64,000 nt of DNA. Origin: a virus. This document shows positions 3 to 12,509 of this stretch, piece by piece (the stretch's first letter is position 1; every line of letters starts with the position of its first letter). The notes under the pieces were generated by a model. It was not told where the DNA came from and made no database searches. It saw only the letters and a program-made list of their open reading frames with translations. The stretch is taken from positions 1 to 64,000 of the IMG/VR virus record IMGVR_UViG_3300032236_001478; one strand, 5' to 3'. A program made the position numbers and the translations under genes.

Positions 3-1484
3 AACGCTATTAATTTAGGTGCAGGTAAAACATATACCTTTATGGCGAGATACCAAAACTGGGGTGGTGGTTGGGGTATGTATGTTGCATGGAAAAGACC
101 ATCACAAAATAGTTATACAACTCAAGCAGATGAGGTATATTCAACACCACCAGCATCACCAACTAAAAAGGGATTTGTTGATTTTAATACAAATACAAAT
201 TTAGACCCAACTAAGTTTTCAATAGGAACCACATTAAGTTCAACGGGTACGGTGGATATAACAACATTATTAGATAGTGTAAAAATATCTAATGGATATA
301 AAGCTGGAATTACCGCGGGACAAACTGAATGGAGTTATGTGAATATATCCAATGGAACAACAACTCTTTACATTGATTTAAGAGAGTTTGGAAATGTTAC
401 ACCATCAACTGTTAATAGTGTTTCAATTTTAGATGTTTATAATGGTCCTGTTACGTTTATTAATAGTGACATATATTGGGCCGAATATTCAGTTCCATCA
501 ACATTACCAAAAGTAACAGATGGTAGTTCAACATATAATTCAAATATAAGAAATGCTGGATATAGTAATTACGCATTTTCTTGTGGTGTCGGATTTACAG
601 CAACTCAAATTTATAAACCACAAACATTTACAGTCACAACTACAAATAATTTAACAACATTATATAATAGCATAGTAACCGTATCAGATGTGTATTTAGC
701 ATTTCAGGAATATTCAAATCAAGGTTTATTTGGTAATCAAACTGGAACATCTTTTACATATGGTATTCAATATCAAAATGCAGATATAAACAATGATGGT
801 ATATTCAATGAAGCAGATTGTTTCCTATTATTAGAAAATTTGACAGGTGCAAAACCATTGGTAGATACTTTTAATCTTAATAAAACATTAAGAATAATAC
901 CACAATCAAAATATGATAGTATTGGAAAATCTAATTGGAATACATTTACAAATCCATTAAGTGCTTCATATACATTTGATATAAACACAGGTAAATCAAC
1001 TGATACATTAAATTTAGCAGTAGCTTGGAAAGGTGATGTTAATTTATCTCATTCATCTACACCAACATCAAATAGTTACACAACAATGTCTATTAAATCG
1101 ATGGTGGTTAGTAATGAAATACAATCAACTATTATATCAGAATTGGTTGGTGATTCTGTTGTTGTTACGATTACATTGAATCCGTTATCACAACAATTGG
1201 TAGGAACTCAATTTATGATAAACTATGATAATACATTATTAAAGTTCTCAAGTGCAACATTTAATACTAAAGGTAATCCCACAAACTATGGAACCGATAA
1301 AGGATCTTATATAAACGTAGGATCAATTATTAGTGATGGTAGTACAACTTTAGATAATACCACATCATATAAAATAAGTTTCAAAACATTAACAAAACTA
1401 AATAACATATTTGGTTTGATATCGGTAGGCGGTACAGATGCTGTTAATCAAGGTGGAACACAACTTAAAATTAGATTAATATGA
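3..1484 (+). CDS. Virion adhesin/fibre-like protein with dockerin-like and cohesin-like modules, 5' end outside window
   Basis: The frame is open to the left edge of the window, so the ATG at 42 is probably internal and the true start lies upstream. The protein is rich in Thr, Ser and Asn and is predicted to be mostly beta-strand, as in phage fibres. Near 780-850 it carries a calcium-loop segment (ADINNDGIFNEAD) followed by a Leu-rich helix ending LTG, the form of a type I dockerin repeat; the preceding VSDVYLAF segment resembles the second half of a degenerate first repeat. From about 1126 to the end, a pattern with GDSVVVTITL, VGTQFMINYDNTLLKF and a final VGGTDAV strand resembles a cohesin fold. 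It overlaps the next gene by 4 bp. The virion role is inferred from composition and context. Confidence 0.65.
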   Translation, partial: NAINLGAGKTYTFMARYQNWGGGWGMYVAWKRPSQNSYTTQADEVYSTPPASPTKKGFVDFNTNTNLDPTKFSIGTTLSSTGTVDITTLLDSVKISNGYKAGITAGQTEWSYVNISNGTTTLYIDLREFGNVTPSTVNSVSILDVYNGPVTFINSDIYWAEYSVPSTLPKVTDGSSTYNSNIRNAGYSNYAFSCGVGFTATQIYKPQTFTVTTTNNLTTLYNSIVTVSDVYLAFQEYSNQGLFGNQTGTSFTYGIQYQNADINNDGIFNEADCFLLLENLTGAKPLVDTFNLNKTLRIIPQSKYDSIGKSNWNTFTNPLSASYTFDINTGKSTDTLNLAVAWKGDVNLSHSSTPTSNSYTTMSIKSMVVSNEIQSTIISELVGDSVVVTITLNPLSQQLVGTQFMINYDNTLLKFSSATFNTKGNPTNYGTDKGSYINVGSIISDGSTTLDNTTSYKISFKTLTKLNNIFGLISVGGTDAVNQGGTQLKIRLI

Positions 1485-1837
1485 TGAATAGTATCAAAGT
1501 TATAATATTGTGTTGTGTCATTTTTATAATATCATGCAGAAAAACGGTATCAACACCACCAATTCAATCGATAACTAGAGATTTTTTTGCAAACTCAATT
1601 AACACAGTTTCTAATGGTGATTCAATTAACTTCACCTTACAAACAGGGGGGGTTTATACGTTAACCATGATTGATACAATACAAAATCAAGTGGTAAGTA
1701 GAGAAAGATTTACTGGTAAAGTCGGAATGAATTCATTAAACATATACACAAAAACCTTAACTCAAACCTACTTAACCGTAGTATTAACAGACAATAATAA
1801 TAATCAAATAAACAAAACAAAAATAACAATTAAATAA
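1481..1837 (+). CDS. Small lipoprotein with T9SS-tail-like beta domain
   Basis: The N-terminus is a hydrophobic signal segment ending in the lipobox IISC, so the mature protein should start at a lipidated Cys. The body (about 95 aa) is a small beta-sandwich candidate with the pattern of Bacteroidota C-terminal sorting/adhesion domains: TLTMIDTIQNQVV, then SLNIYTKTL, then LTVVLTDNNNNQI and a basic last strand. The start is ATG 1481 or 1484 (ATGATGA). It overlaps both neighbours, so it is translationally coupled between the adhesin gene and a second lipoprotein gene. It could be a lipid-anchored host-surface factor such as a receptor blocker; that is inference. Confidence 0.7.
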   Translation: MMNSIKVIILCCVIFIISCRKTVSTPPIQSITRDFFANSINTVSNGDSINFTLQTGGVYTLTMIDTIQNQVVSRERFTGKVGMNSLNIYTKTLTQTYLTVVLTDNNNNQINKTKITIK

Positions 1838-2205
1838 TGAAAAAACTATCTCTCCTTATCGGTTTATTCGTTCTTGTTGGATGTAGTAAAAATGTACCTC
1901 TAGCAGTAACACAACCTCAAATTGATCCAAACTTAGCAATTGCAAGTACTGTTGGTGTAAAATTACAAACAGCATTTGTAACTTCCGAAGTTTCAATGAA
2001 CATTAAAAGTCAAACAGCACAGACAGTAACAGTTAAAATTTTAGACATTACCAATAGAGTAGTTTCTAAATCAGTAAGTGATGTGAAAGTTGGCGACAAT
2101 GTGTTATCACTATACACATCTGCATTTCCATCTTCAGCATATAGAATAGCTGTTTATGACGCAAACGGTAATCTAATTGCAATTACTGATTTTAATAAAA
2201 TCTAA
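1837..2205 (+). CDS. Second small lipoprotein with T9SS-tail-like domain
   Basis: A signal peptide with lipobox LVGC is followed by a spacer of about 30 aa and a domain (VTVKILDITNRVVSK, then VLSLYTSAF, YRIAVYDANGNLI) that fits the strand and turn pattern of type A T9SS C-terminal domains better than its upstream neighbour does. Unlike true T9SS cargo it is a short lipoprotein with no passenger domain. The start codon shares one base with the preceding stop (TAATG). The pair looks like an ancient tandem duplication. The function is unknown; surface masking or superinfection exclusion is possible. Confidence 0.7.
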   Translation: MKKLSLLIGLFVLVGCSKNVPLAVTQPQIDPNLAIASTVGVKLQTAFVTSEVSMNIKSQTAQTVTVKILDITNRVVSKSVSDVKVGDNVLSLYTSAFPSSAYRIAVYDANGNLIAITDFNKI

Positions 2206-2230: not shown

Positions 2231-2596
2231 ATGGCAAAAGCTAAAAAAGAACAAACACCAGACGAAGCAATGGCTAAAAATGAGAAGCATAATGACGGAA
2301 CCATGAGTGGTCTTAAAAAGACTATTATTGGTACAGTTGGTACTTTAGTAACAGCTGGGGGTGCATTTTTAATGACTTATTTACAAAAGCCAAAAGAAGG
2401 TGAAAACAAACAAGCTACTCCTCAATCAATAAACATTAACCTTCCAGCTCAACAACAAGCTGCTGCAGGTAAAACTGTTATTATTAAGGAAAAGGGTGCC
2501 GCAGGATCTAATGTTCCAGCAGCAAAACCAGCTGAAACACCAAAACCTAAAAAGAAAGAAGGTGATGAGTTTAAGGAAAAACCAGCTCAATGGTAG
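2231..2596 (+). CDS. Small single-span membrane protein with Ala/Pro/Lys-rich tail
   Basis: This 121-aa protein has a charged N-terminus (about 30 aa), one transmembrane segment near residues 30-50 (TIIGTVGTLVTAGGAFLMTYL) and a Pro/Ala/Lys-rich tail with PKPKKKEG close to the end. That layout fits a spanin-like or holin-associated protein spanning the periplasm, but no family is recognised. The start at 2231 follows an A-rich leader without a Shine-Dalgarno sequence, typical of this genome. It is followed by a tiny overlapping membrane-peptide gene. Confidence 0.6.
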   Translation: MAKAKKEQTPDEAMAKNEKHNDGTMSGLKKTIIGTVGTLVTAGGAFLMTYLQKPKEGENKQATPQSININLPAQQQAAAGKTVIIKEKGAAGSNVPAAKPAETPKPKKKEGDEFKEKPAQW

Positions 2597-2691
2597 TCTA
2601 TTACCAAATAGGAACAATAATTATAATGATAGGAATCGTGTCTCTCCTGACAATATTATCATTTAAAATTAAAAAGAAAGACAATGGCTGA
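2590..2691 (+). CDS. 33-residue membrane peptide, overlapping both neighbours
   Basis: ATG 2590 lies inside the last codons of the preceding gene, and the TGA at 2689-2691 lies inside the first codons of the next one, so the three frames are interlocked. The peptide (MVVYYQIGTIIIMIGIV... ending KIKKKDNG) is one hydrophobic helix with a Lys-rich C-terminus, the form of a small inner-membrane peptide with a cytoplasmic tail. The tight coupling and clean topology argue that it is real. A later in-frame ATG at 2626 is an alternative start. Confidence 0.5.
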   Translation: MVVYYQIGTIIIMIGIVSLLTILSFKIKKKDNG

Positions 2692-3262
2692 CGAACAAAA
2701 TCACGGATTTAGGGATTTATTAAATAAAATGATGGCAAGAAGATGGTATATCTCTGCCATGGTATTGGGTGGATTTATGTTAATCATAATAGGAATTTTT
2801 GTTGCTATTATGGATAAAAACCCAATGTCAACAGAATGGAAAGAACTTTTATTATTGTTATTGGGTGCGTTCATCGGTAGTTATGGTAAAATCATTGACT
2901 ACTGGTTTAGCGACATGGATAAAGATAAAATGTTAGTTCAGAAAATGGATGAAGAAGACGGTACCACATTATCTAACACAAATGATATGAAGGAATCCAA
3001 TCATAATTACGCACCATTAATTCCTGATGCATTTGCTAATGCTGCTGTTAAAGCACAAGAAATGCAGGTTGTTGAAAATAAACAGGAATTTGAATTAGCG
3101 AAAAAGGAACAAGAACACAAACACGAAATGGAACTTCTTAATTTTCATCACGAGCATCGTCAATGCGAGCATGATTGGGTTGATGATGGACAGGGTGGTT
3201 TAGAATGTTCTAAGTGTGGTAAAATAAAAGACCCTGATCACCATGATGTGACTGAGGGGTAA
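2684..3262 (+). CDS. Two-span membrane protein with C-terminal zinc-finger-like tail
   Basis: This 192-aa protein has transmembrane segments at about residues 24-44 and 58-75 (WKELLLLLLGAFIGSYGK), then a coiled-coil-like region rich in Glu, Lys and Gln, and a His/Cys-rich end: HHEHRQCEHDW followed about 15 aa later by CSKCGK. The Cys/His spacing suggests one bound zinc. The two-helix hairpin with a long charged tail is consistent with a holin or holin regulator; no named family is recognised. It lies among other small membrane genes and the operon runs in one direction. Confidence 0.55.
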   Translation: MADEQNHGFRDLLNKMMARRWYISAMVLGGFMLIIIGIFVAIMDKNPMSTEWKELLLLLLGAFIGSYGKIIDYWFSDMDKDKMLVQKMDEEDGTTLSNTNDMKESNHNYAPLIPDAFANAAVKAQEMQVVENKQEFELAKKEQEHKHEMELLNFHHEHRQCEHDWVDDGQGGLECSKCGKIKDPDHHDVTEG

Positions 3263-3291: not shown

Positions 3292-3546
3292 ATGACATTT
3301 AAACAATGGTTAATTGAACTTTTCAAGGATGAAAGAGGTGCGATCTCTGTTAAACCAGTGGTAGCATTTATCGGAGCAATGTTCTTATGTATCACAATGA
3401 TAGCTAACAGCTATTCAGCAAAAGACATTGCACCATCGGACAAATTGGTCGATGCGGTAATGATTATCACAGCAATAGGTATGGGGGCCGACACTGTTGA
3501 TAAGTTCAGTAAAAAAGATACACCTAAGGAAGAATCTGAAGGTTAA
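3292..3546 (+). CDS. Holin-like protein
   Basis: This 84-aa protein has an amphipathic N-terminus (MTFKQWLIELFKDERG), two hydrophobic segments at about residues 22-42 and 52-68, and an acidic/Lys-rich C-terminal tail. The size and two-span topology are typical of class II holins, and the gene sits last before a strong terminator in a cluster of membrane proteins. No endolysin is visible in the window, so the lysis role is inferred. Confidence 0.5.
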   Translation: MTFKQWLIELFKDERGAISVKPVVAFIGAMFLCITMIANSYSAKDIAPSDKLVDAVMIITAIGMGADTVDKFSKKDTPKEESEG

Positions 3547-3550
3547 ATTA

Positions 3551-3574
3551 AGGGAGTTAAAAACTCCCTTTTTT
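3551..3574 (+). terminator. Rho-independent terminator
   Basis: An 8-9 bp stem (AAGGGAGTT / AACTCCCTT) with a short A-rich loop runs into a T tract, directly after the holin-like gene. Confidence 0.9.
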
Positions 3575-3578
3575 GTTG

Positions 3579-3586
3579 TATTTATT
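3579..3586 (+). promoter_or_regulatory. Late-type box TATTTATT
   Basis: TATTTATT lies 13 nt before ATG 3600 and directly after a terminator, as expected for a new transcription start. Confidence 0.5.
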
Positions 3587-3599
3587 GAAAAGGTATTTT

Positions 3600-3815
3600 A
3601 TGAAAAAAATAATCGACATCCTATTTAATGTATTTGTTAGATTAGTATTTGCTTGGGTTGTATTGGCATTTTGTTTCCAAGTTTACATGGTTTATGTTCA
3701 TTTTACAGATGAAGAAAAAGAGCAAAGAATGGCTAACGAATTTGCATGGAAATTTGATGGTAGATTTAGTAATCAACCTGGTAATATATGGTACAAAGAA
3801 CCTAAAACAAAGTAG
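3600..3815 (+). CDS. Small single-span membrane protein
   Basis: ATG 3600 is preferred over an upstream TTG (3573), because the TTG overlaps the terminator and promoter box. The product is about 71 aa with one long transmembrane segment (about residues 5-30, aromatic-rich) followed by a charged domain with DEEKEQRMANEFAWKF and ending WYKEPKTK. No family is recognised. It is followed 2 nt later by the FeoA-like gene, so the two are probably co-transcribed. Confidence 0.6.
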   Translation: MKKIIDILFNVFVRLVFAWVVLAFCFQVYMVYVHFTDEEKEQRMANEFAWKFDGRFSNQPGNIWYKEPKTK

Positions 3816-3817
3816 AA

Positions 3818-4054
3818 ATGAGTGTATTTGATGTTTTAGATGTACCTCAACCTGAAAACTGTGAAAGATGTACACCTTGTTTAAGGTTACGAATGATGGA
3901 AATGGGGTTTATTACAGGTCAAAAAATTGAAATAAAAAATAAACGTATGGGTTTATGGTTGGTAAATTTATTATCTGATAATGATGATGTTATGTCAACC
4001 GTAGCACTTAGACAAGAAGAATTAGATAGAATTTGTTTAAAAGAAATAAAATAG
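3818..4054 (+). CDS. FeoA-like SH3-fold protein with N-terminal Cys cluster
   Basis: This 78-aa protein matches the core pattern of FeoA domains: MMEMGFITGQKIEIKNK, a strand, and a final VALRQEELDRI that corresponds to the FeoA 'alr..ea..i' end. FeoA is a small cytoplasmic SH3-like protein that assists FeoB in ferrous iron uptake; no FeoB is visible here. An N-terminal C-x2-C-x2-C cluster (Cys15, 18, 21) could bind metal. A stand-alone FeoA domain in a phage envelope cassette is unusual; it may act as a protein-protein or metal-sensing adaptor. Confidence 0.65.
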   Translation: MSVFDVLDVPQPENCERCTPCLRLRMMEMGFITGQKIEIKNKRMGLWLVNLLSDNDDVMSTVALRQEELDRICLKEIK

Positions 4055-4059
4055 AATAT

Positions 4060-4779
4060 ATGAAAAAATTGTTAATTTTTTTAATGGCATGTTTGGTTAG
4101 CTTTACAGTAAGTAGTCAAACAATAGGAAAAACTAAAACGGAAGAATTTAAAGCTGACTTTGAGAAAAAGAAAGATATTTCAGCTTTTATGAATTATTCA
4201 GGACCTCAAATTCCGATCCAAATCCTTAAATGTGGTATCAATGACGAAACTTACGAAATGTACCCAGAATTAAAGGAAAAACGTGTAGGATTGGGTGTTG
4301 CTAACATTACATTAGAATATCTCGATAATCTTGGACGTTTTATGTTCACAGAAGATAAGACAGAAATAAAGAATAGGATGATTACCCAATATAAAGCATC
4401 TCAGGCTGGTATTTCTGAAGATAAATTAGATGGTCGCGGTAAAATTCGTTTAGCACATTATTTTGTGGAAATTGAGGTATATGATTATTCAGTATCGGAA
4501 GACGAAACCATCAATCTAAAAGATGGTATTAAGGACAATATGGTTACACGTATAGGTTTACAAGTTAGATTTACTGATGCGGAAACTGGTACAATTATTG
4601 GTGCATCTGGTTTAGGCGAAGCTAAGACAAACCGTGAATTAACATTATTGTCAGATGCAACTGTTGACCCTATTAAATTTAACCAATCAACAATTTCAAT
4701 TGCAACTAAAAAAGCCTTAGATATAGCATGTGCGAATATTCTTGATAAGATGATCAAGAAGGGTGTATTTAAGAACTAA
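4060..4779 (+). CDS. CsgG-like exported protein
   Basis: ATG 4060 begins a clear signal peptide (MKKLLIFLMACLVSFTVSSQ), probably cut after the SSQ region by signal peptidase I; there is no lipobox, unlike true CsgG. The mature 220 aa follow the CsgG-family pattern: a first strand region, RVGLGVANITLEYLDNLGRF, a segment ending in a putative outer-surface strand, then DAETGTIIGASGLGEA and a final helix (ALDIACANILDKM). CsgG forms the outer-membrane curli secretion pore. In a phage this could be a periplasmic or outer-membrane assembly factor. It ends 2 nt before a beta-barrel gene and is probably coupled to it. Confidence 0.65.
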   Translation: MKKLLIFLMACLVSFTVSSQTIGKTKTEEFKADFEKKKDISAFMNYSGPQIPIQILKCGINDETYEMYPELKEKRVGLGVANITLEYLDNLGRFMFTEDKTEIKNRMITQYKASQAGISEDKLDGRGKIRLAHYFVEIEVYDYSVSEDETINLKDGIKDNMVTRIGLQVRFTDAETGTIIGASGLGEAKTNRELTLLSDATVDPIKFNQSTISIATKKALDIACANILDKMIKKGVFKN

Positions 4780-4781
4780 TA

Positions 4782-6410
4782 ATGAAAAAAATAATATTAT
4801 CTCTCCTAATATTATGTTTCGTTGGTTTTAAATCATACGGACAAGTTTACACTCAAACATTTGTTGATAAATGTACTGGGGAAATAAAAATTGCAACAAC
4901 TACATATGTTAATGGTAGTGCTGTTGTATCTTTTTACAATCAAATAAAAACATTTACTCAAGTTCAAGCAACAAATGGCACATTACAAGCTTGGTTGCAA
5001 CAAACATATAACGATTATAATTCATCAGCTTGTCCTGTAAGTCAAACAGTTCAACAAACAGTACAAAATACAGTTTCACAAGCAGCTGCGGCAGCGGCTT
5101 CATCTGCAGCTTCTAATGCCGCATCTAGCGCTGCATCAAGTGCGGCAAGTTCGGCGGCATCAAGTGCTGCTTCTTCATCAGCTAGTTCAGCGGCGAGTAG
5201 TTCAGCGTCATCAGCAGCATCATCTTCGGCAAGTTCTGCTGCAAGTGGTTCAGCAAGTGGAGCGGCATCCTCATCAGCAAGCGGAGCAGCGTCATCATCG
5301 GCTGGTAGTACTTCAACTTCTAGCGCACCACCTGCAAGTAGTTCATCATCAAGTTCTGGTGGATCTACAACATCAGGTGGAAATACTGAAAGTAGTTCGT
5401 CATCATCAAGTGGATCATCTTCTAGTTCGACATCAAGTGGTGGTGAAAGTAGTTCATCATCATCAAGTGGATCATCTTCTAGTTCTAGTAGTTCATCGTC
5501 ATCAGATAGTAAACCAGCATCATCTAGTTCATCATCTGATAGTAAAAGTAGTTCATCAGAAAGTAAATCATCATCTTCAGAATCTAAATCAGAAAGTAAG
5601 AGTGAATCCAAATCTGAAAGTAAATCAGAGTCAAAATCTGATAGTAAAAAATCAGATGATAAAAAACAAGAAGAACAAAAAAAGAAAGAGGAACAACAAA
5701 AGAAAAAAGAAGAGCAACAAAAAAAGAAAGAAGAAAAGAAAAAACAAAACGCATTAAATCCAACTTTAATAGCATCAGATTTAACAACAACGGAGGGACA
5801 AAATAAACAATATAGTGCGATATTGGGATTGGGTTGGAGTAAATCTTCGTTAATGGGTGATGAATCGTATAGTGCAAATGCTATGATATGGTCAACATTA
5901 AATCAATTTGCGTTAAGTGGCGGTTATACTAAAATGAATATGGATAATGGTAAATTAAATTCAATCAGTTCATATGGTTTAACGACAGCATATTTAAGTG
6001 GTAACATAATGAATTTAGTTAGTTATACTTGGATTAAACCAAATCCAAAATATGGCACATATGGTTACAATGTTGGCGTAATTAACTTATTGCTAAGAAA
6101 CACAAATAAAACTGGATATGATCCTGGATATATTACATCAGCTGTTGTGTTTTGGACTAAACCATTTACATATAGTCCTAAGTTAACATATTCACCACAA
6201 ATTTTTGCGATGTCATCACCTATGTCATATAATTCATTAACGGGATCGACTTTAGTAAACAGACATTTTGGATTTTTAGTAGGAACTAGTGTTGATTATA
6301 AATTATCAAAAAGATTTGGTATGAGTTTCAACTATAAGTTGAATATGAGCACACAACCAGGTTCACACTTTACAAATAACTTTTTGATTGGGTCAAGAAT
6401 GGTATTGTAA
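4782..6410 (+). CDS. Secreted outer-membrane barrel-like protein with Ala/Ser/Lys-rich linker
   Basis: The N-terminal signal peptide (about residues 1-20, cut after SYGQ) leads into a small domain of about 70 aa. Then comes a very long low-complexity region: Ala/Ser repeats from about residue 99, Ser/Gly blocks, Ser-Glu-Ser-Lys repeats to about 286, and a Lys/Glu/Gln tract to about 323. The last 220 aa alternate hydrophobic and polar residues with many aromatic and Gly positions and end in a short hydrophobic strand (RMVL), as in outer-membrane beta-barrels. The linker could cross the periplasm or peptidoglycan. It sits next to the CsgG-like gene, so a joint export or envelope complex is possible. 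Specific function unknown. Confidence 0.6.
   Translation: MKKIILSLLILCFVGFKSYGQVYTQTFVDKCTGEIKIATTTYVNGSAVVSFYNQIKTFTQVQATNGTLQAWLQQTYNDYNSSACPVSQTVQQTVQNTVSQAAAAAASSAASNAASSAASSAASSAASSAASSSASSAASSSASSAASSSASSAASGSASGAASSSASGAASSSAGSTSTSSAPPASSSSSSSGGSTTSGGNTESSSSSSSGSSSSSTSSGGESSSSSSSGSSSSSSSSSSSDSKPASSSSSSDSKSSSSESKSSSSESKSESKSESKSESKSESKSDSKKSDDKKQEEQKKKEEQQKKKEEQQKKKEEKKKQNALNPTLIASDLTTTEGQNKQYSAILGLGWSKSSLMGDESYSANAMIWSTLNQFALSGGYTKMNMDNGKLNSISSYGLTTAYLSGNIMNLVSYTWIKPNPKYGTYGYNVGVINLLLRNTNKTGYDPGYITSAVVFWTKPFTYSPKLTYSPQIFAMSSPMSYNSLTGSTLVNRHFGFLVGTSVDYKLSKRFGMSFNYKLNMSTQPGSHFTNNFLIGSRMVL
5388..5485 (+). repeat. 41-nt direct repeat in the Ser-rich linker
   Basis: Positions 5388-5428 and 5445-5485 are the same 41 nt except for one base, in frame and 57 nt apart. 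The surrounding 5080-5640 consists of TCA/AGT/AGC/GCA codon repeats that could slip or recombine. Confidence 0.85.
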
Positions 6411-6441
6411 AAAAAATCCTCGAAGTAGAAACCCCGAGGAT
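6411..6441. terminator. Bidirectional terminator between convergent genes
   Basis: The stem ATCCTCG / CGAGGAT encloses a loop of about 12 nt. A run of seven A on the left makes it a strong T-tract terminator for minus-strand transcripts; the plus-strand side has a weaker T tract. Confidence 0.75.
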
Positions 6442-6495: not shown

Positions 6496-6816
6496 TTATT
6501 TATTTGTAAACTCTTTATATAAAGAATTTATTTCGCCACAAATCTCAAATTCTTCAATTTCCTCAAAATGTGGCATCAAATCTCTTTTCAACACAATATG
6601 TTCATCTCTATTGAATACTAATTCAGTATCCCATACTTCTTCACGAATAGTAGCCGAAATAGCTAATATTAATGTTTTCTTTCTCTTGTCTCTAAATGTC
6701 TTGAATAGCTCAAAAATAGATTTGTAAATCTCGGTTTTGGTATCCAAATAAAAATCATCATAATTTTTGTATAACTTATTGAATGATATTGATTTGTGGG
6801 GTTTTTTTAGTGCCAT
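6496..6816 (-). CDS. Hypothetical protein
   Basis: This 106-aa charged protein has no signal peptide or transmembrane segment. Lys/Tyr-rich helices at the N-terminus (FNKLYKNYDDFYLDTKTEIYK) are followed by a hydrophobic strand (KTLILAISATI) and a Glu-rich C-terminal half. It is not recognised. It has its own late-type box upstream and is the last gene before the bidirectional terminator. Confidence 0.6.
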   Translation of the reverse strand: MALKKPHKSISFNKLYKNYDDFYLDTKTEIYKSIFELFKTFRDKRKKTLILAISATIREEVWDTELVFNRDEHIVLKRDLMPHFEEIEEFEICGEINSLYKEFTNK

Positions 6817-9316: not shown

Positions 9317-11335
9317 TTATAAGATTTTTTTTGTCAAAACCAACTTATCGTCTTTATATTTCAATGTAACTGCTTTATTTTCAACAATGTTACCTTTAAG
9401 AATTTCTTCACTTAAGAAATCTTCACACAAATTTTGTATGATTCTTTTAATTGGTCTTGCACCATATTCCTCTTGTGAATTCAATTCTAAAACTCTTTGA
9501 TTAACAGATTCGTCAATTTTGATTTTGTAACCTTTTTCAACTAATCTATTGTTCAATTTGTTTAATTCAATTGAAATGATTTTATTTAATACATTAGTAT
9601 CTAATGCATTAAATAATACAACATCATCAATACGATTTAAGAATTCTGGATTGAATTGTTGCTTCAAGGCTTTTTGTATGATAGTCTTTTTAACTTCATA
9701 CTTTTGTTCTTCACTTGATGTTGTTTGGAATCCCATTCCTGTACCAAATTCAGAAACTTTTTTAGCACCAACATTTGATGTTAAGATAACAAGACAATTG
9801 GTAAAATTAATTTTCTTGCCAAATGAATCTGATAAATGACCTTCATCTAAAATTTGTAATAGAATATTGAAAACATCTTTATGTGCTTTTTCAATTTCAT
9901 CAAATAATATTACTGAGAAAGGATTGTTCTTAATTTTTTCAGTTAATTGACCACCTTCATCATAACCAACGTAACCTGGAGGTGAACCGATTAATTTAGA
10001 AACGCTATGCTTCTCCATAAATTCACTCATATCAACACGAATGATTTTTTCAGGGTCGCCAAATAATGTTTCAGCTAATGATTTAGCTAAGAATGTTTTA
10101 CCAACACCAGTTGACCCTAAGAAAATAAATGAACCAATTGGTTTATTTGCGTCTTTGATACCAACACGATTTCTTCTAATTGCTCTTGAGATAGATGAAA
10201 TAGCTTCGTCCTGACCAATTACTTTAGCAGATAAGACTTCTTCCATTTTCAATAATCTTTGCGACTCTTTCTCGTCCAATTTAGTAATTGGTACACCAGT
10301 AATCATTGAGATCATTTCATAAACATCATCTATTGTAACTGGAACTTTATTATTCTTTTGTGCTTCAGCCCAATTGATTTTTTCTTGTTCCAATTTGTCT
10401 TGCAACTTTCTTTCGTCATCCCTCAACTTAGCAGCTTGTTCGTAAATTTGTTGCTTAACAACTTCCAATTTTTTCTCCTTGATTTCTTCTATTTGCTTTT
10501 TCAATTTTTCAATTGCTTCAGGTACCACAACAGAAGTTTTCTTTTCAGAACCCAATTCATCTAATACATCGATAGCCTTATCAGGAAACTGTTTATCGGT
10601 GATATAACGATGAGCTAACTTAACAATTGTTTCAATAACACCATCATTATATTTTACTTTATGAAAATTCTCATAATTCTCTTGTAAATTTTTCAAGATA
10701 GTGATTGTTTCTTCTTGAGTTGGTTCGTTAAGAATAATTTTTTGGAATCTTCTTGATAACGCACCGTCTTTTTCAATTGATTTTTTATACTCATCAAATG
10801 TGGTTGCACCAATTACTTGAATTTCACCTCTTGCTAATGCAGGTTTCAATATGTTAGCAGCATCCATAGACCCACTAGCATTACCGGCACCGACCATTGT
10901 GTGTAACTCATCAATAAACACAACTACATTGGGTGCTTCTAATAATTCATTTAATATTGCTTTAATTCTTTCCTCGAATTGTCCGCGATATTTTGTTCCA
11001 GCAACAAGAGCAGTTAAATCTAAAGACATGATACGTTTGTCTAAAAGATTTGTTGGACAATTACCTTTTTGGATCATCATTGCTAATTTTTCAACTAACG
11101 CAGATTTACCAACTCCAGCATCGCCAACAATAACAGCATTGTTCTTTTTCTTACGAGATAAAATTTGTGCAATTCTTTTTACCTCAGCATCTCTACCAAC
11201 AATTGGATCAATCTTTCCGTCCTCAGCTAACTTAATTAAGTCGCGAGAAAAATTGTCTAAGATTGGTGTATTGGAACCCTTTTTTGTTTTTTTCGGATTA
11301 AGGGTTGGTCCGTCTTCAAAAAAATCTACTGACAT
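9317..11335 (-). CDS. ClpC-like double AAA+ unfoldase lacking the N-terminal repeat domain
   Basis: Two AAA+ modules are complete. D1 has Walker A GDAGVGKS (71-78) and Walker B VVVFIDE (about 137-142). A middle coiled coil (about 270-330) follows. D2 has Walker A GSTGVGKT (407-414), pore loop GYVGYDE (454-460), Walker B VILFDE (475-480) and sensor region PEFLNRIDD. The usual Clp N-domain of about 150 aa is missing, replaced by a short leader. A GMGF segment (533-536) sits where ClpC carries its ClpP-binding loop, so it may dock on host ClpP rather than act only as a disaggregase. An exact Bacteroidota promoter lies upstream. It is divergent from a small heat-shock gene. Confidence 0.9.
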   Translation of the reverse strand: MSVDFFEDGPTLNPKKTKKGSNTPILDNFSRDLIKLAEDGKIDPIVGRDAEVKRIAQILSRKKKNNAVIVGDAGVGKSALVEKLAMMIQKGNCPTNLLDKRIMSLDLTALVAGTKYRGQFEERIKAILNELLEAPNVVVFIDELHTMVGAGNASGSMDAANILKPALARGEIQVIGATTFDEYKKSIEKDGALSRRFQKIILNEPTQEETITILKNLQENYENFHKVKYNDGVIETIVKLAHRYITDKQFPDKAIDVLDELGSEKKTSVVVPEAIEKLKKQIEEIKEKKLEVVKQQIYEQAAKLRDDERKLQDKLEQEKINWAEAQKNNKVPVTIDDVYEMISMITGVPITKLDEKESQRLLKMEEVLSAKVIGQDEAISSISRAIRRNRVGIKDANKPIGSFIFLGSTGVGKTFLAKSLAETLFGDPEKIIRVDMSEFMEKHSVSKLIGSPPGYVGYDEGGQLTEKIKNNPFSVILFDEIEKAHKDVFNILLQILDEGHLSDSFGKKINFTNCLVILTSNVGAKKVSEFGTGMGFQTTSSEEQKYEVKKTIIQKALKQQFNPEFLNRIDDVVLFNALDTNVLNKIISIELNKLNNRLVEKGYKIKIDESVNQRVLELNSQEEYGARPIKRIIQNLCEDFLSEEILKGNIVENKAVTLKYKDDKLVLTKKIL

Positions 11336-11441: not shown

Positions 11442-11472
11442 TTTGGTTGGCAAAAAAATTGATATATTATTG
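11442..11472 (+). promoter_or_regulatory. Bacteroidota-type promoter for the Hsp20 gene
   Basis: TTTG (11442-11445), 19 nt, TATTATTG (11465-11472, one mismatch from TAnnTTTG). The Hsp20 ATG is 16 nt downstream. Confidence 0.65.
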
Positions 11473-11488
11473 GAAAATTTTATATACT

Positions 11489-11854
11489 ATGATAACATTA
11501 TTTAATAATCCATTTTTTCAAGCATTCGACAAAGCATTCGAATCTAAATTCTTATCAACACCTGAAACTAACATCTCGAAAACTGAAACTGAGTATGTGG
11601 TTTCAATGAGTGTTCCTGGTTTAACCAAGGATGACATTAAAATAAGCACTAAAGAAGGTGTGTTGAAAATCACATATGAAAAATCAGAAGGTGATGTTCA
11701 GCAATATTTTATTGGTAGCTTTATTAAGTCATATAATATTCCAGATGATGTAAAAGAAAAAGATATCGAGGGTAAAGTTGAAAACGGTGTATTAAGATTG
11801 GTATTACCGATAGACAAGAAAAAAGCCATTGAGCGTTTGATTTCACTAAACTAA
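11489..11854 (+). CDS. Small heat-shock protein (Hsp20/alpha-crystallin family)
   Basis: ATG 11489 (MITLFNNPFFQAFDK) is preferred over an in-frame TTG 42 nt upstream that lies inside the promoter. The protein is 121 aa with an alpha-crystallin domain of the IbpA/Hsp20 type: YVVSMSVPGLTKDDIKIS, then GVLKITYEK, then the loop and KVENGVLRLVLP. The C-terminal IxI anchor is not obvious. These proteins hold unfolding clients; with the divergent ClpC-like unfoldase it may form a phage protein-quality-control pair that supports virion assembly. Confidence 0.9.
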   Translation: MITLFNNPFFQAFDKAFESKFLSTPETNISKTETEYVVSMSVPGLTKDDIKISTKEGVLKITYEKSEGDVQQYFIGSFIKSYNIPDDVKEKDIEGKVENGVLRLVLPIDKKKAIERLISLN

Positions 11855-11860
11855 AAAAGA

Positions 11861-11880
11861 CCCCCTTATTGGGGGTTTTT
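11861..11880 (+). terminator. Rho-independent terminator
   Basis: CCCCC TTATT GGGGG TTTTT follows the Hsp20 gene. Confidence 0.9.
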
Positions 11881-11953
11881 AATTTTTTTTGCCTAAAATT
11901 TTTTTTTGTCATTTCTTTTATGTAAATTAGTAGTGTAACAAAAATTAAATTTT

Positions 11954-12202
11954 ATGAGTGTTAAAAAAGAAAAAATCACAGGTAAGATGATTGATGTACA
12001 AATCAAATCATCAAGTTTGAAATCAGCGTCTTATGACTGCTTAAACGAAAGTATGACTGTTACTTTCAATTCTGGTGCTGTTTACAAGTACAGCGAAGTA
12101 CCTTTAAGTATCTTCACTAAGTTCAGAATGGCTAAGTCTCAAGGACAGTATTTCAACAAACACGTCTCTCCTAACTTCATGTATCGCAAAGTTAGAAAGT
12201 AA
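11954..12202 (+). CDS. KTSC-domain protein, copy 1
   Basis: An 82-aa protein made almost entirely of a KTSC domain, named for its presence at lysyl-tRNA synthetase C-termini: SSSLKSASYDCLNESMTVTF, NSGAVYKYSEVP, then a helix and SQGQYFNKHVSPNF. The function of stand-alone KTSC proteins is unknown; nucleic-acid binding has been suggested. A possible -7 element TAAATTAG (11923-11930) lacks a good -33 box. It ends at its own terminator and is about 40-50% identical by eye to the next gene. Confidence 0.75.
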   Translation: MSVKKEKITGKMIDVQIKSSSLKSASYDCLNESMTVTFNSGAVYKYSEVPLSIFTKFRMAKSQGQYFNKHVSPNFMYRKVRK

Positions 12203-12212
12203 AAAAAATAAG

Positions 12213-12237
12213 CCCCGAGAATTCGGGGTTTTTTTTT
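12213..12237 (+). terminator. Rho-independent terminator
   Basis: CCCCGA GAAT TCGGGG followed by nine T, between the two KTSC genes. Confidence 0.9.
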
Positions 12238-12240
12238 GGA

Positions 12241-12248
12241 TATTTATT
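12241..12248 (+). promoter_or_regulatory. Late-type box TATTTATT
   Basis: It directly follows the terminator and lies 15 nt before ATG 12264. Confidence 0.5.
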
Positions 12249-12263
12249 GATATAATAAATTAT

Positions 12264-12509
12264 ATGTCAGTAATATCAGAAAAAATTGATGGTAAGAATA
12301 TCATCGTAGAAGTTAAGTCTTCTAACATTAAATCAGCACATTATAACACAGAAAGCGAAAATTTAACTGTAACATTTAATACAGGTGGTATTTATGAATA
12401 CGCTAAAGTTCCTTGGCAGAAGTTTACTAAGTTTAGAATGGCTGAATCGCATGGTAAATTTTTCAATGAACAAATAGCAAAAGCACACAAATACACAAAG
12501 GTAAAATGA
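12264..12509 (+). CDS. KTSC-domain protein, copy 2
   Basis: This 81-aa paralogue of the preceding gene has the same core: SSNIKSAHYNTESENLTVTF, NTGGIYEYAKVP and KFRMAESHGKFFNEQI. The different promoters suggest the two copies are expressed at different times. Its stop overlaps the start of the nucleotidyltransferase gene by 4 bp (ATGA), so the two are coupled and may work together. Confidence 0.75.
   Translation: MSVISEKIDGKNIIVEVKSSNIKSAHYNTESENLTVTFNTGGIYEYAKVPWQKFTKFRMAESHGKFFNEQIAKAHKYTKVK

Follow-up and report, generated by a model that had tools for sequence, protein, structure and literature searches.

A secreted protein with the CsgG fold and a predicted 12-strand outer-membrane beta-barrel protein are encoded by adjacent plus-strand genes in virus record IMGVR_UViG_3300032236_001478, of which the first 64,000 of 81,623 bases (the window) were analyzed. 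Structural genes (terminase, portal, head protease, major head protein, tail sheath and tube) identify the record as a T4-like myophage. The pair is a genuine envelope module of phages, widespread and strongly conserved; the folds of both products are assigned with confidence, and its function is only proposed. Our favored reading, held tentatively at somewhat under an even chance, is that the two proteins form the periplasmic and the outer-membrane part of a trans-envelope module that exports phage proteins or displays them at the surface of infected Bacteroidota cells. The CsgG-like gene (4060..4779, + strand; ATG at 4060, stop codon 4777-4779) encodes 239 amino acids, and the barrel gene, of 542 amino acids, begins 2 bases further on (ATG at 4782, stop ending at 6410, + strand). 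Judged from sequence, each product opens with a signal-peptide-like stretch of Lys plus hydrophobic residues, and the Gln that comes next is invariant (Q20 and Q21, respectively), in agreement with the signal peptides and the 2-nucleotide gap of the original prediction.

Invariant residues, AlphaFold2 and fold searches together divide the CsgG-like protein into the signal-peptide-like stretch (residues 1-19), a mature N-terminus near Q20, a conserved segment (21-45) and a folded core (about 49-237). The AlphaFold2 model, built on 68 relatives, has a mean predicted local distance difference test score (pLDDT) of 74. In a Foldseek search against the PDB all of the first 25 rows were CsgG (best E 1.6e-7), followed by PelC, FlgT, GNA1162 and LptE, and a second structural comparison again ranked CsgG first (Z 11.9 over 173 residues, root-mean-square deviation 3.9), ahead of Cj1090c (10.6), PelC (9.6) and LptE (9.2). 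Compared with a library of predicted viral structures, it matched best a phage protein that already bears the name CsgG. The label 'CsgG-like', which had been given from sequence, is thus borne out by the predicted fold. The window's protein matched no Pfam or PHROG family at a useful score. The Pfam CsgG profile PF03783 left it unmatched, found nothing in its own record or in 24 records searched at E 0.1, and matched 2 of the 68 relatives (best E 1.9e-4). The profile of the family had no sequence match in the PDB, and its comparison with CsgG of E. coli K-12 aligned 22 residues only.

The CsgG-like protein also departs from CsgG in its likely relation to the membrane. No lipobox is conserved, a lipobox-like motif starting at positions 14-26 being present in 3 of 168 distinct proteins, and Q20 is invariant in all 68 aligned rows. 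The regions equivalent to the CsgG hairpins comprise 18 and 17 residues, 7 and 5 of them charged, compared with 22 and 29 residues, 3 and 6 charged, in E. coli K-12 CsgG, which suggests that the two amphipathic transmembrane hairpins of CsgG are absent; we infer a soluble periplasmic protein. Because it lacks a lipobox and its hairpin regions are short and charged, the CsgG-like protein is probably no outer-membrane pore, and the partner barrel is therefore the likelier channel, if any channel exists. The export role suggested in the original prediction stays plausible, but any pore is probably not the work of the CsgG-like protein. Residues 21-45 are modeled with low confidence yet strongly conserved (K26, F34 and E35 are invariant in the 68 rows), and look like a docking segment.

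The second protein begins with its signal-peptide-like stretch (residues 1-20, 4782..4841, + strand, as are all its parts), after which Q21 is invariant in 40 of 40 rows. A small head (21-86, 4842..5039) is modeled as four strands and two helices and carries the invariant residues C31, G66, W71 and C84, two of them cysteines. It is followed by an Ala/Ser-rich stretch (88-142, 5043..5207), helical in the model at low to middling confidence, and by a Ser-rich, disordered linker some 150 residues long (143-295, 5208..5666) that is 59% Ser and mostly below pLDDT 50. That this linker is wall-spanning, as earlier supposed, is plausible on length alone. Composition and the model place a Lys/Glu-rich helix (296-322, 5667..5747) ahead of the barrel (328-541, 5763..6404), which, in a model built on 58 rows, consists of 12 long strands predicted with high confidence (mean pLDDT per ten residues 81-94 from residue 331 onward) and bears out the earlier claim of a barrel-like C-terminus. 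Foldseek matched the barrel to NanC, KdgM, FapF and OmpG; the use of this program on both proteins had been suggested at the outset, and it has given the CsgG fold for the first and outer-membrane barrels for the second. In the second structural comparison NalP scored highest (Z 24.1 over 234 residues), followed by KdgM (20.9) and FapF (20.4), and EspP was also matched. Because such barrels are alike in shape, the matches establish how the barrel is folded and not what it does. Six weak PDB sequence matches of the barrel profile were rejected as low complexity, and two PHROG matches, which fall in the linker and the Lys/Glu-rich helix, as composition. The protein has no conserved lipobox and no sequence match to FapF was found. 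Pfam scans of the head, which was not searched by itself, gave scattered weak matches and no named relative. In the model the layout fits either a FapF-like order of parts or autotransporter-like exposure, so that the head may lie on either side of the outer membrane.

Relatives of the pair were collected as 157 loci, each with a distinct CsgG-like protein. This non-random sample draws on four viral scans, with the 80 best rows kept from each (80 of 193, of at least 553, of 113 and of 246 coding stretches), and on a barrel scan, a cultured phage, one genome contig and the window's copy. With at least 553 coding stretches in one scan, the CsgG-like family is common in IMG/VR. A gene for a head-plus-barrel protein is adjacent to the CsgG-like gene in 74 loci, further downstream in 60 and upstream in 5, making 139 of 157, and the pairing that the original prediction proposed to look for in other phages is thus kept. 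Among the remaining loci, the head is truncated in 10 where the contig stops, 6 have no partner in less than 3 kb of downstream sequence, and 2 have no partner in a longer stretch. Two clades are distinguished by identity to the window's CsgG-like copy (50-65% vs 75-100%), and the pairing recurs in both. Between them identity falls from 58% in the CsgG-like protein (57 of 58 rows, one locus being without it) to 28.5% in the head and 16% in the barrel, an order to be expected if the head meets a conserved partner. For the CsgG-like gene, comparison with four relatives gives a ratio of nonsynonymous to synonymous substitution rates (dN/dS) of about 0.03-0.06; dS exceeds 1.3 in every one of these comparisons and is thus close to saturation.

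A cultured relative occurs in Flavobacterium phage immuto, whose CsgG-like protein is 54% identical over its full length and is followed directly by the barrel partner, gp018. Among 39 candidate stretches from a scan of 84,980 bacterial and archaeal species genomes, a single relative was found. It was counted as phage because its 254-kb contig carries a phage terminase, and a close bacterial origin was rejected on this ground. This contig (CAIWBA010000291.1, locus L088) lies inside a Bacteroidetes metagenome bin of the bacterial genome collection. The pair therefore appears to belong to phages, and it is carried by many large viruses of Bacteroidota.

These patterns bear on whether the barrel protein might act by itself, as an autotransporter-like protein that carries its head outside on the Ser-rich stalk, with the CsgG-fold gene a mere neighbor of separate role. 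Like the type Va autotransporters NalP and EspP, it has an N-terminal passenger-like part, a helix and a C-terminal 12-strand barrel, and NalP is its best structural match. However, the head is better conserved between clades than the barrel, unlike a variable surface part, and the pairing with the CsgG-like gene is near-constant. In contrast to type Va proteins, the passenger is tiny, the stalk is of low complexity, and none of 43 barrels matched a Pfam autotransporter family. Display by the barrel protein alone is accordingly given only a slight chance.

If the export or display reading is right, the system would work as a split CsgG-plus-barrel exporter, closer in plan to PelC/PelB or FapF than to CsgG itself. 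PelC forms a ring and works in exopolysaccharide export with PelB, and so a CsgG-like periplasmic protein without a barrel of its own is combined there, as here, with a separate outer-membrane barrel. One difference is that PelC is a lipoprotein; another is the tetratricopeptide repeat (TPR) domain of PelB. Neither a lipobox nor TPR was seen in the phage pair. FapF consists of an N-terminal periplasmic part forming a trimeric coiled coil, a disordered 42-residue linker, a helix and a 12-strand barrel, its coiled coil, linker and plug controlling an amyloid export channel (PMC5557850). The predicted order of parts is the same in the phage protein, for which the model shows a two-cysteine head of strands and short helices, followed by the Ala/Ser helix of low confidence, where FapF has its coiled coil, and about 150 Ser-rich residues in place of the short linker.

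Phage-encoded CsgG is already known, and it is the pairing with a separate barrel that differs here. CsgG occurs with CsgF in pelagimyophages (PMC7029224), with CsgF and curlin subunits in HTVC023P-type pelagiphages (PMC9599517), and with CsgF in the absence of curlin subunits in methylophage Melnitz, whose CsgG is reported to match that of E. coli, barrel included (PMC9004378). The earlier statement that no such pair is standard in phages must be softened to this extent. Those systems likewise carry a CsgG-fold export protein within a conserved multi-gene cluster; they keep CsgF and in part curlin fibers, whereas the present loci have a 12-strand barrel and lectin, cohesin and sorting-tail proteins. 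With CsgG of type VIII secretion the phage protein shares the overall fold, the order of elements and secretion to the periplasm, and it differs in its missing lipobox, its short charged hairpin regions and its lack of CsgF or clear curlin repeats in the records searched. CsgF was found in 0 of 24 records, which may be incomplete, and the curlin repeat in 0 of the same 24 above cut-off, with 2 weak partial matches. A plain curli system was therefore rejected. A search of the open-licence literature (subscription journals and preprints lying outside its scope) returned no paper on the pair in phages of Bacteroidota.

The case for export or display also draws on the neighboring genes, which were counted in the 99 loci with at least 5.5 kb of sequence on each side (38 in clade A and 61 in clade B). 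Families were clustered by BLAST and may be merged in places; TM108, Lec407 and TMholin189 are our own labels. The most constant neighbor, TM108, an inner-membrane-like protein, is present in 35/38 clade A and 60/61 clade B loci (95/99). Across all loci it occurs in 135 of 157, and Trp is the last residue of its Pro/Lys/Glu-rich tail in every distinct copy (131 of 131), making the tail a likely docking peptide. Clade B loci carry a protein with cohesin and the sorting tail of the type IX secretion system (T9SS) in 61/61 cases and a lectin-dockerin protein in 59/61, both found in 0/38 of clade A, where a Lec629-type lectin (33/38, vs 2/61 in clade B) and small lipoproteins (35/38, vs 0/61) are found. 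Example domain checks gave Cohesin plus Por_Secre_tail in L088 (5316-7241; tail E 1.9e-11) and in immuto gp015 (tail E 2.4e-8), and Lectin_C in immuto gp013. In L261 Lectin_C came with a weak dockerin, and in L265 Ig_7 came with a weak lectin. Each clade B record searched (14 of 14, 158-434 kb) has just one T9SS tail over its whole length, 0.3-1.7 kb upstream of the CsgG-like gene; a T9SS tail was found in 0 of 10 clade A records searched.

It is because secreted lectin, cohesin and dockerin proteins are such near-constant company that export or display appears the likeliest purpose of the pair. The CsgG-fold protein would have given up its membrane hairpins and lipid anchor and act as a soluble, possibly ring-forming, periplasmic adaptor, and the barrel would provide an opening or an anchor in the outer membrane. 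Both the head and TM108, through its Trp-ended tail, could dock on the CsgG-fold protein. Cargo would be one or more of the neighboring surface proteins, above all the lectin-dockerin proteins that have no T9SS tail of their own. Consistent with this, both sides match the folds of secretion parts (CsgG, Cj1090c, PelC, LptE and FlgT on one, NalP, KdgM, EspP and FapF on the other). The pairing is near-constant, surface proteins adjoin it, and CsgG export encoded by pelagiphages offers a precedent.

Side by side in the same loci stand a phage protein with cohesin and a T9SS sorting tail and the lectin-dockerin proteins (L088 5316-7241; L087 12691-13419; all 14 clade B records), and a phage-made cohesin-dockerin surface complex is possible. 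T9SS tails on phage proteins have been reported before, from a cryoconite phage (PMC7468147).

A short CsgG-like paralogue of about 150 amino acids is present in 93 of 157 loci (for example L088 12337-12780 and L087 15954-16409) as counted by hidden Markov model, which is the safer count because the BLAST cluster took in some proteins of 60-80 amino acids; figures from that cluster are accordingly not used as evidence here. The profile of the paralogue also matches the window's CsgG-like protein (E 3.5e-10). The window yielded no second CsgG-like copy, the record beginning just where relatives carry the short paralogue, and the neighbor families, when sought in the rest of the record, gave no further matches. 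In L088 the gene directly before the paralogue encodes a second barrel protein, which lacks the Ser linker (11513-12334), and the pairing may have been duplicated there. Another barrel-like secreted protein, of about 297 amino acids, occurs in 26 of 157 loci (such as L098 3399-4298); in clade A it often lies 4-6 kb upstream of the pair.

The neighborhood can also be read as that of a lysis device, in which the tethered barrel, the CsgG-fold protein and the Trp-ended inner-membrane protein would breach the outer membrane as a stand-in for spanins beside a holin and an endolysin. The fusion device of the original prediction survives solely in this form. Three small membrane protein families surround the pair. 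In addition to TM108, the holin-like TMholin189 is found in 33/38 clade A and 35/61 clade B loci (68/99), and a GH19 endolysin in 6/38 and 43/61 (49/99), its assignment in the L088 copy resting on phrog_181 (E 3e-70). TM108, with one hydrophobic stretch and a long tail, is laid out like the inner-membrane part of a spanin, and as in two-component spanins (Rz/Rz1) an outer-membrane partner would face it across the periplasm. A lysis role has been proposed for CsgGF of Melnitz too (PMC9004378). However, the outer-membrane partner here is a beta-barrel protein and not a small lipoprotein. Spanins are recognized by an outer-membrane lipoprotein or as unimolecular spanins, and a conserved lipobox is missing from both proteins of the pair; the window's lipo122 neighbors do look like lipoproteins. 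The membrane proteins matched no holin or spanin family at a useful score, and the endolysin is absent from the available flanks in half of the loci and about 8 kb away in immuto. A folded 12-strand barrel and constant secreted lectins would be unexpected for a spanin. Lysis, well supported by the membrane proteins and the endolysin close by, is the main alternative, though less probable than export or display.

Rather improbable is superinfection exclusion or envelope remodeling, whereby the barrel would occupy or alter the outer membrane, the CsgG-fold protein block the entry of rival phages and receptors be masked by the surface proteins. Outer-membrane exclusion proteins are known from phages, and every part of the module is secreted to the envelope. 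Conservation is far lower in the barrel than in the CsgG-like protein, which would suit this role, and protection from superinfection has also been proposed for pelagiphage curli (PMC9599517). Nevertheless, the extreme conservation of the CsgG-like protein and its many fixed partners exceed what a one-protein exclusion factor would call for, and no named exclusion family was matched above noise. The proteins might instead end in or on the phage particle, given that neighboring lectins could bind glycans and that the module shares its record with T4-like structural genes. Signal-peptide-like N-termini on both proteins and on their neighbors argue against a virion component, as does the outer-membrane barrel, for which a tailed virion offers no place; this is the least probable reading.

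Several observations weigh against export or display itself. Its cargo, channel and complex are as yet only proposed. Proteins with T9SS tails would use the T9SS of the host and need no phage channel. The CsgG fold also occurs in proteins that export nothing, and the porins NanC and KdgM score as high as FapF against the barrel, the 12-strand shape being a common one. The endolysin and holin-like genes are nearby, as the lysis alternative expects. Neither a clear cohesin nor a T9SS tail was found in the window's neighbors or in the 10 clade A records, and in the window a terminator-like hairpin (3550-3570) parts the upstream membrane proteins from the unit of the pair. A fuller version of the export reading is doubtful, with a modest chance at best: a previously undescribed phage secretion machine in which a CsgG fold without anchor or hairpins, split from its pore, has as its partner a 12-strand barrel of the FapF or autotransporter type on a periplasm-length tether and is tied to the inner membrane by a Trp-ended protein, placing a cohesin-dockerin-lectin complex on infected Bacteroidota cells partly via host type IX secretion.

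Should export or display be correct, lytic Bacteroidota phages would carry their own outer-membrane export or display apparatus and change the surface of the cells they infect, by a layout not described for CsgG proteins in the open-licence literature searched. If the pair instead serves a lysis step, it would help to explain how these phages open the outer membrane without recognizable spanins. Either way, proteins labeled hypothetical gain a fold and partners, and their function is open to experiment because a cultured member, phage immuto, exists.

Upstream of the pair, all on the + strand, the window starts with the end of a secreted protein cut by the record start (3..1484), with a weak dockerin-like repeat (Dockerin_1 E 0.036, below cut-off). 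Sequence and neighbor clustering assign the next gene to a small lipoprotein-like family, lipo122 (1481..1837); a second member follows (1837..2205), with weak Por_Secre_tail and DUF3244 likeness (E 0.0096 and 0.0015, below cut-off). The window's TM108 protein (2231..2596) has the single hydrophobic stretch, long Pro/Lys/Glu-rich tail and C-terminal Trp of its family. The holin-like TMholin189 protein (2684..3262) has two hydrophobic stretches, and no named family backs a holin role; a small TM85-family protein (3292..3546) also has two. The terminator-like hairpin at 3550..3570 may separate these genes from the unit that includes the pair; 4 such sites were found, compared with 2.3 expected. 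It is followed by a small membrane protein (3573..3815; an internal start at 3597 gives 72 amino acids), found in 43 of 157 loci, and by a 78-amino-acid FeoA-domain-like protein (3818..4054; PF04023 E 5.9e-5, 23.5 bits against a cut-off of 23) in the same unit as the pair. The latter lies directly upstream of the CsgG-like gene and has a Cys-rich N-terminus. Matches to sigma-70 promoters were at chance level (39 found, 36.9 expected). Downstream, a terminator-like hairpin of 11 pairs (6416..6441, - strand) lies between the barrel gene and a convergent gene (6496-6816). Further on, a long open reading frame (9317-11335, - strand) resembles a ClpA/ClpC-type AAA+ protein and another (11447-11854) is Hsp20-like, both by eye.

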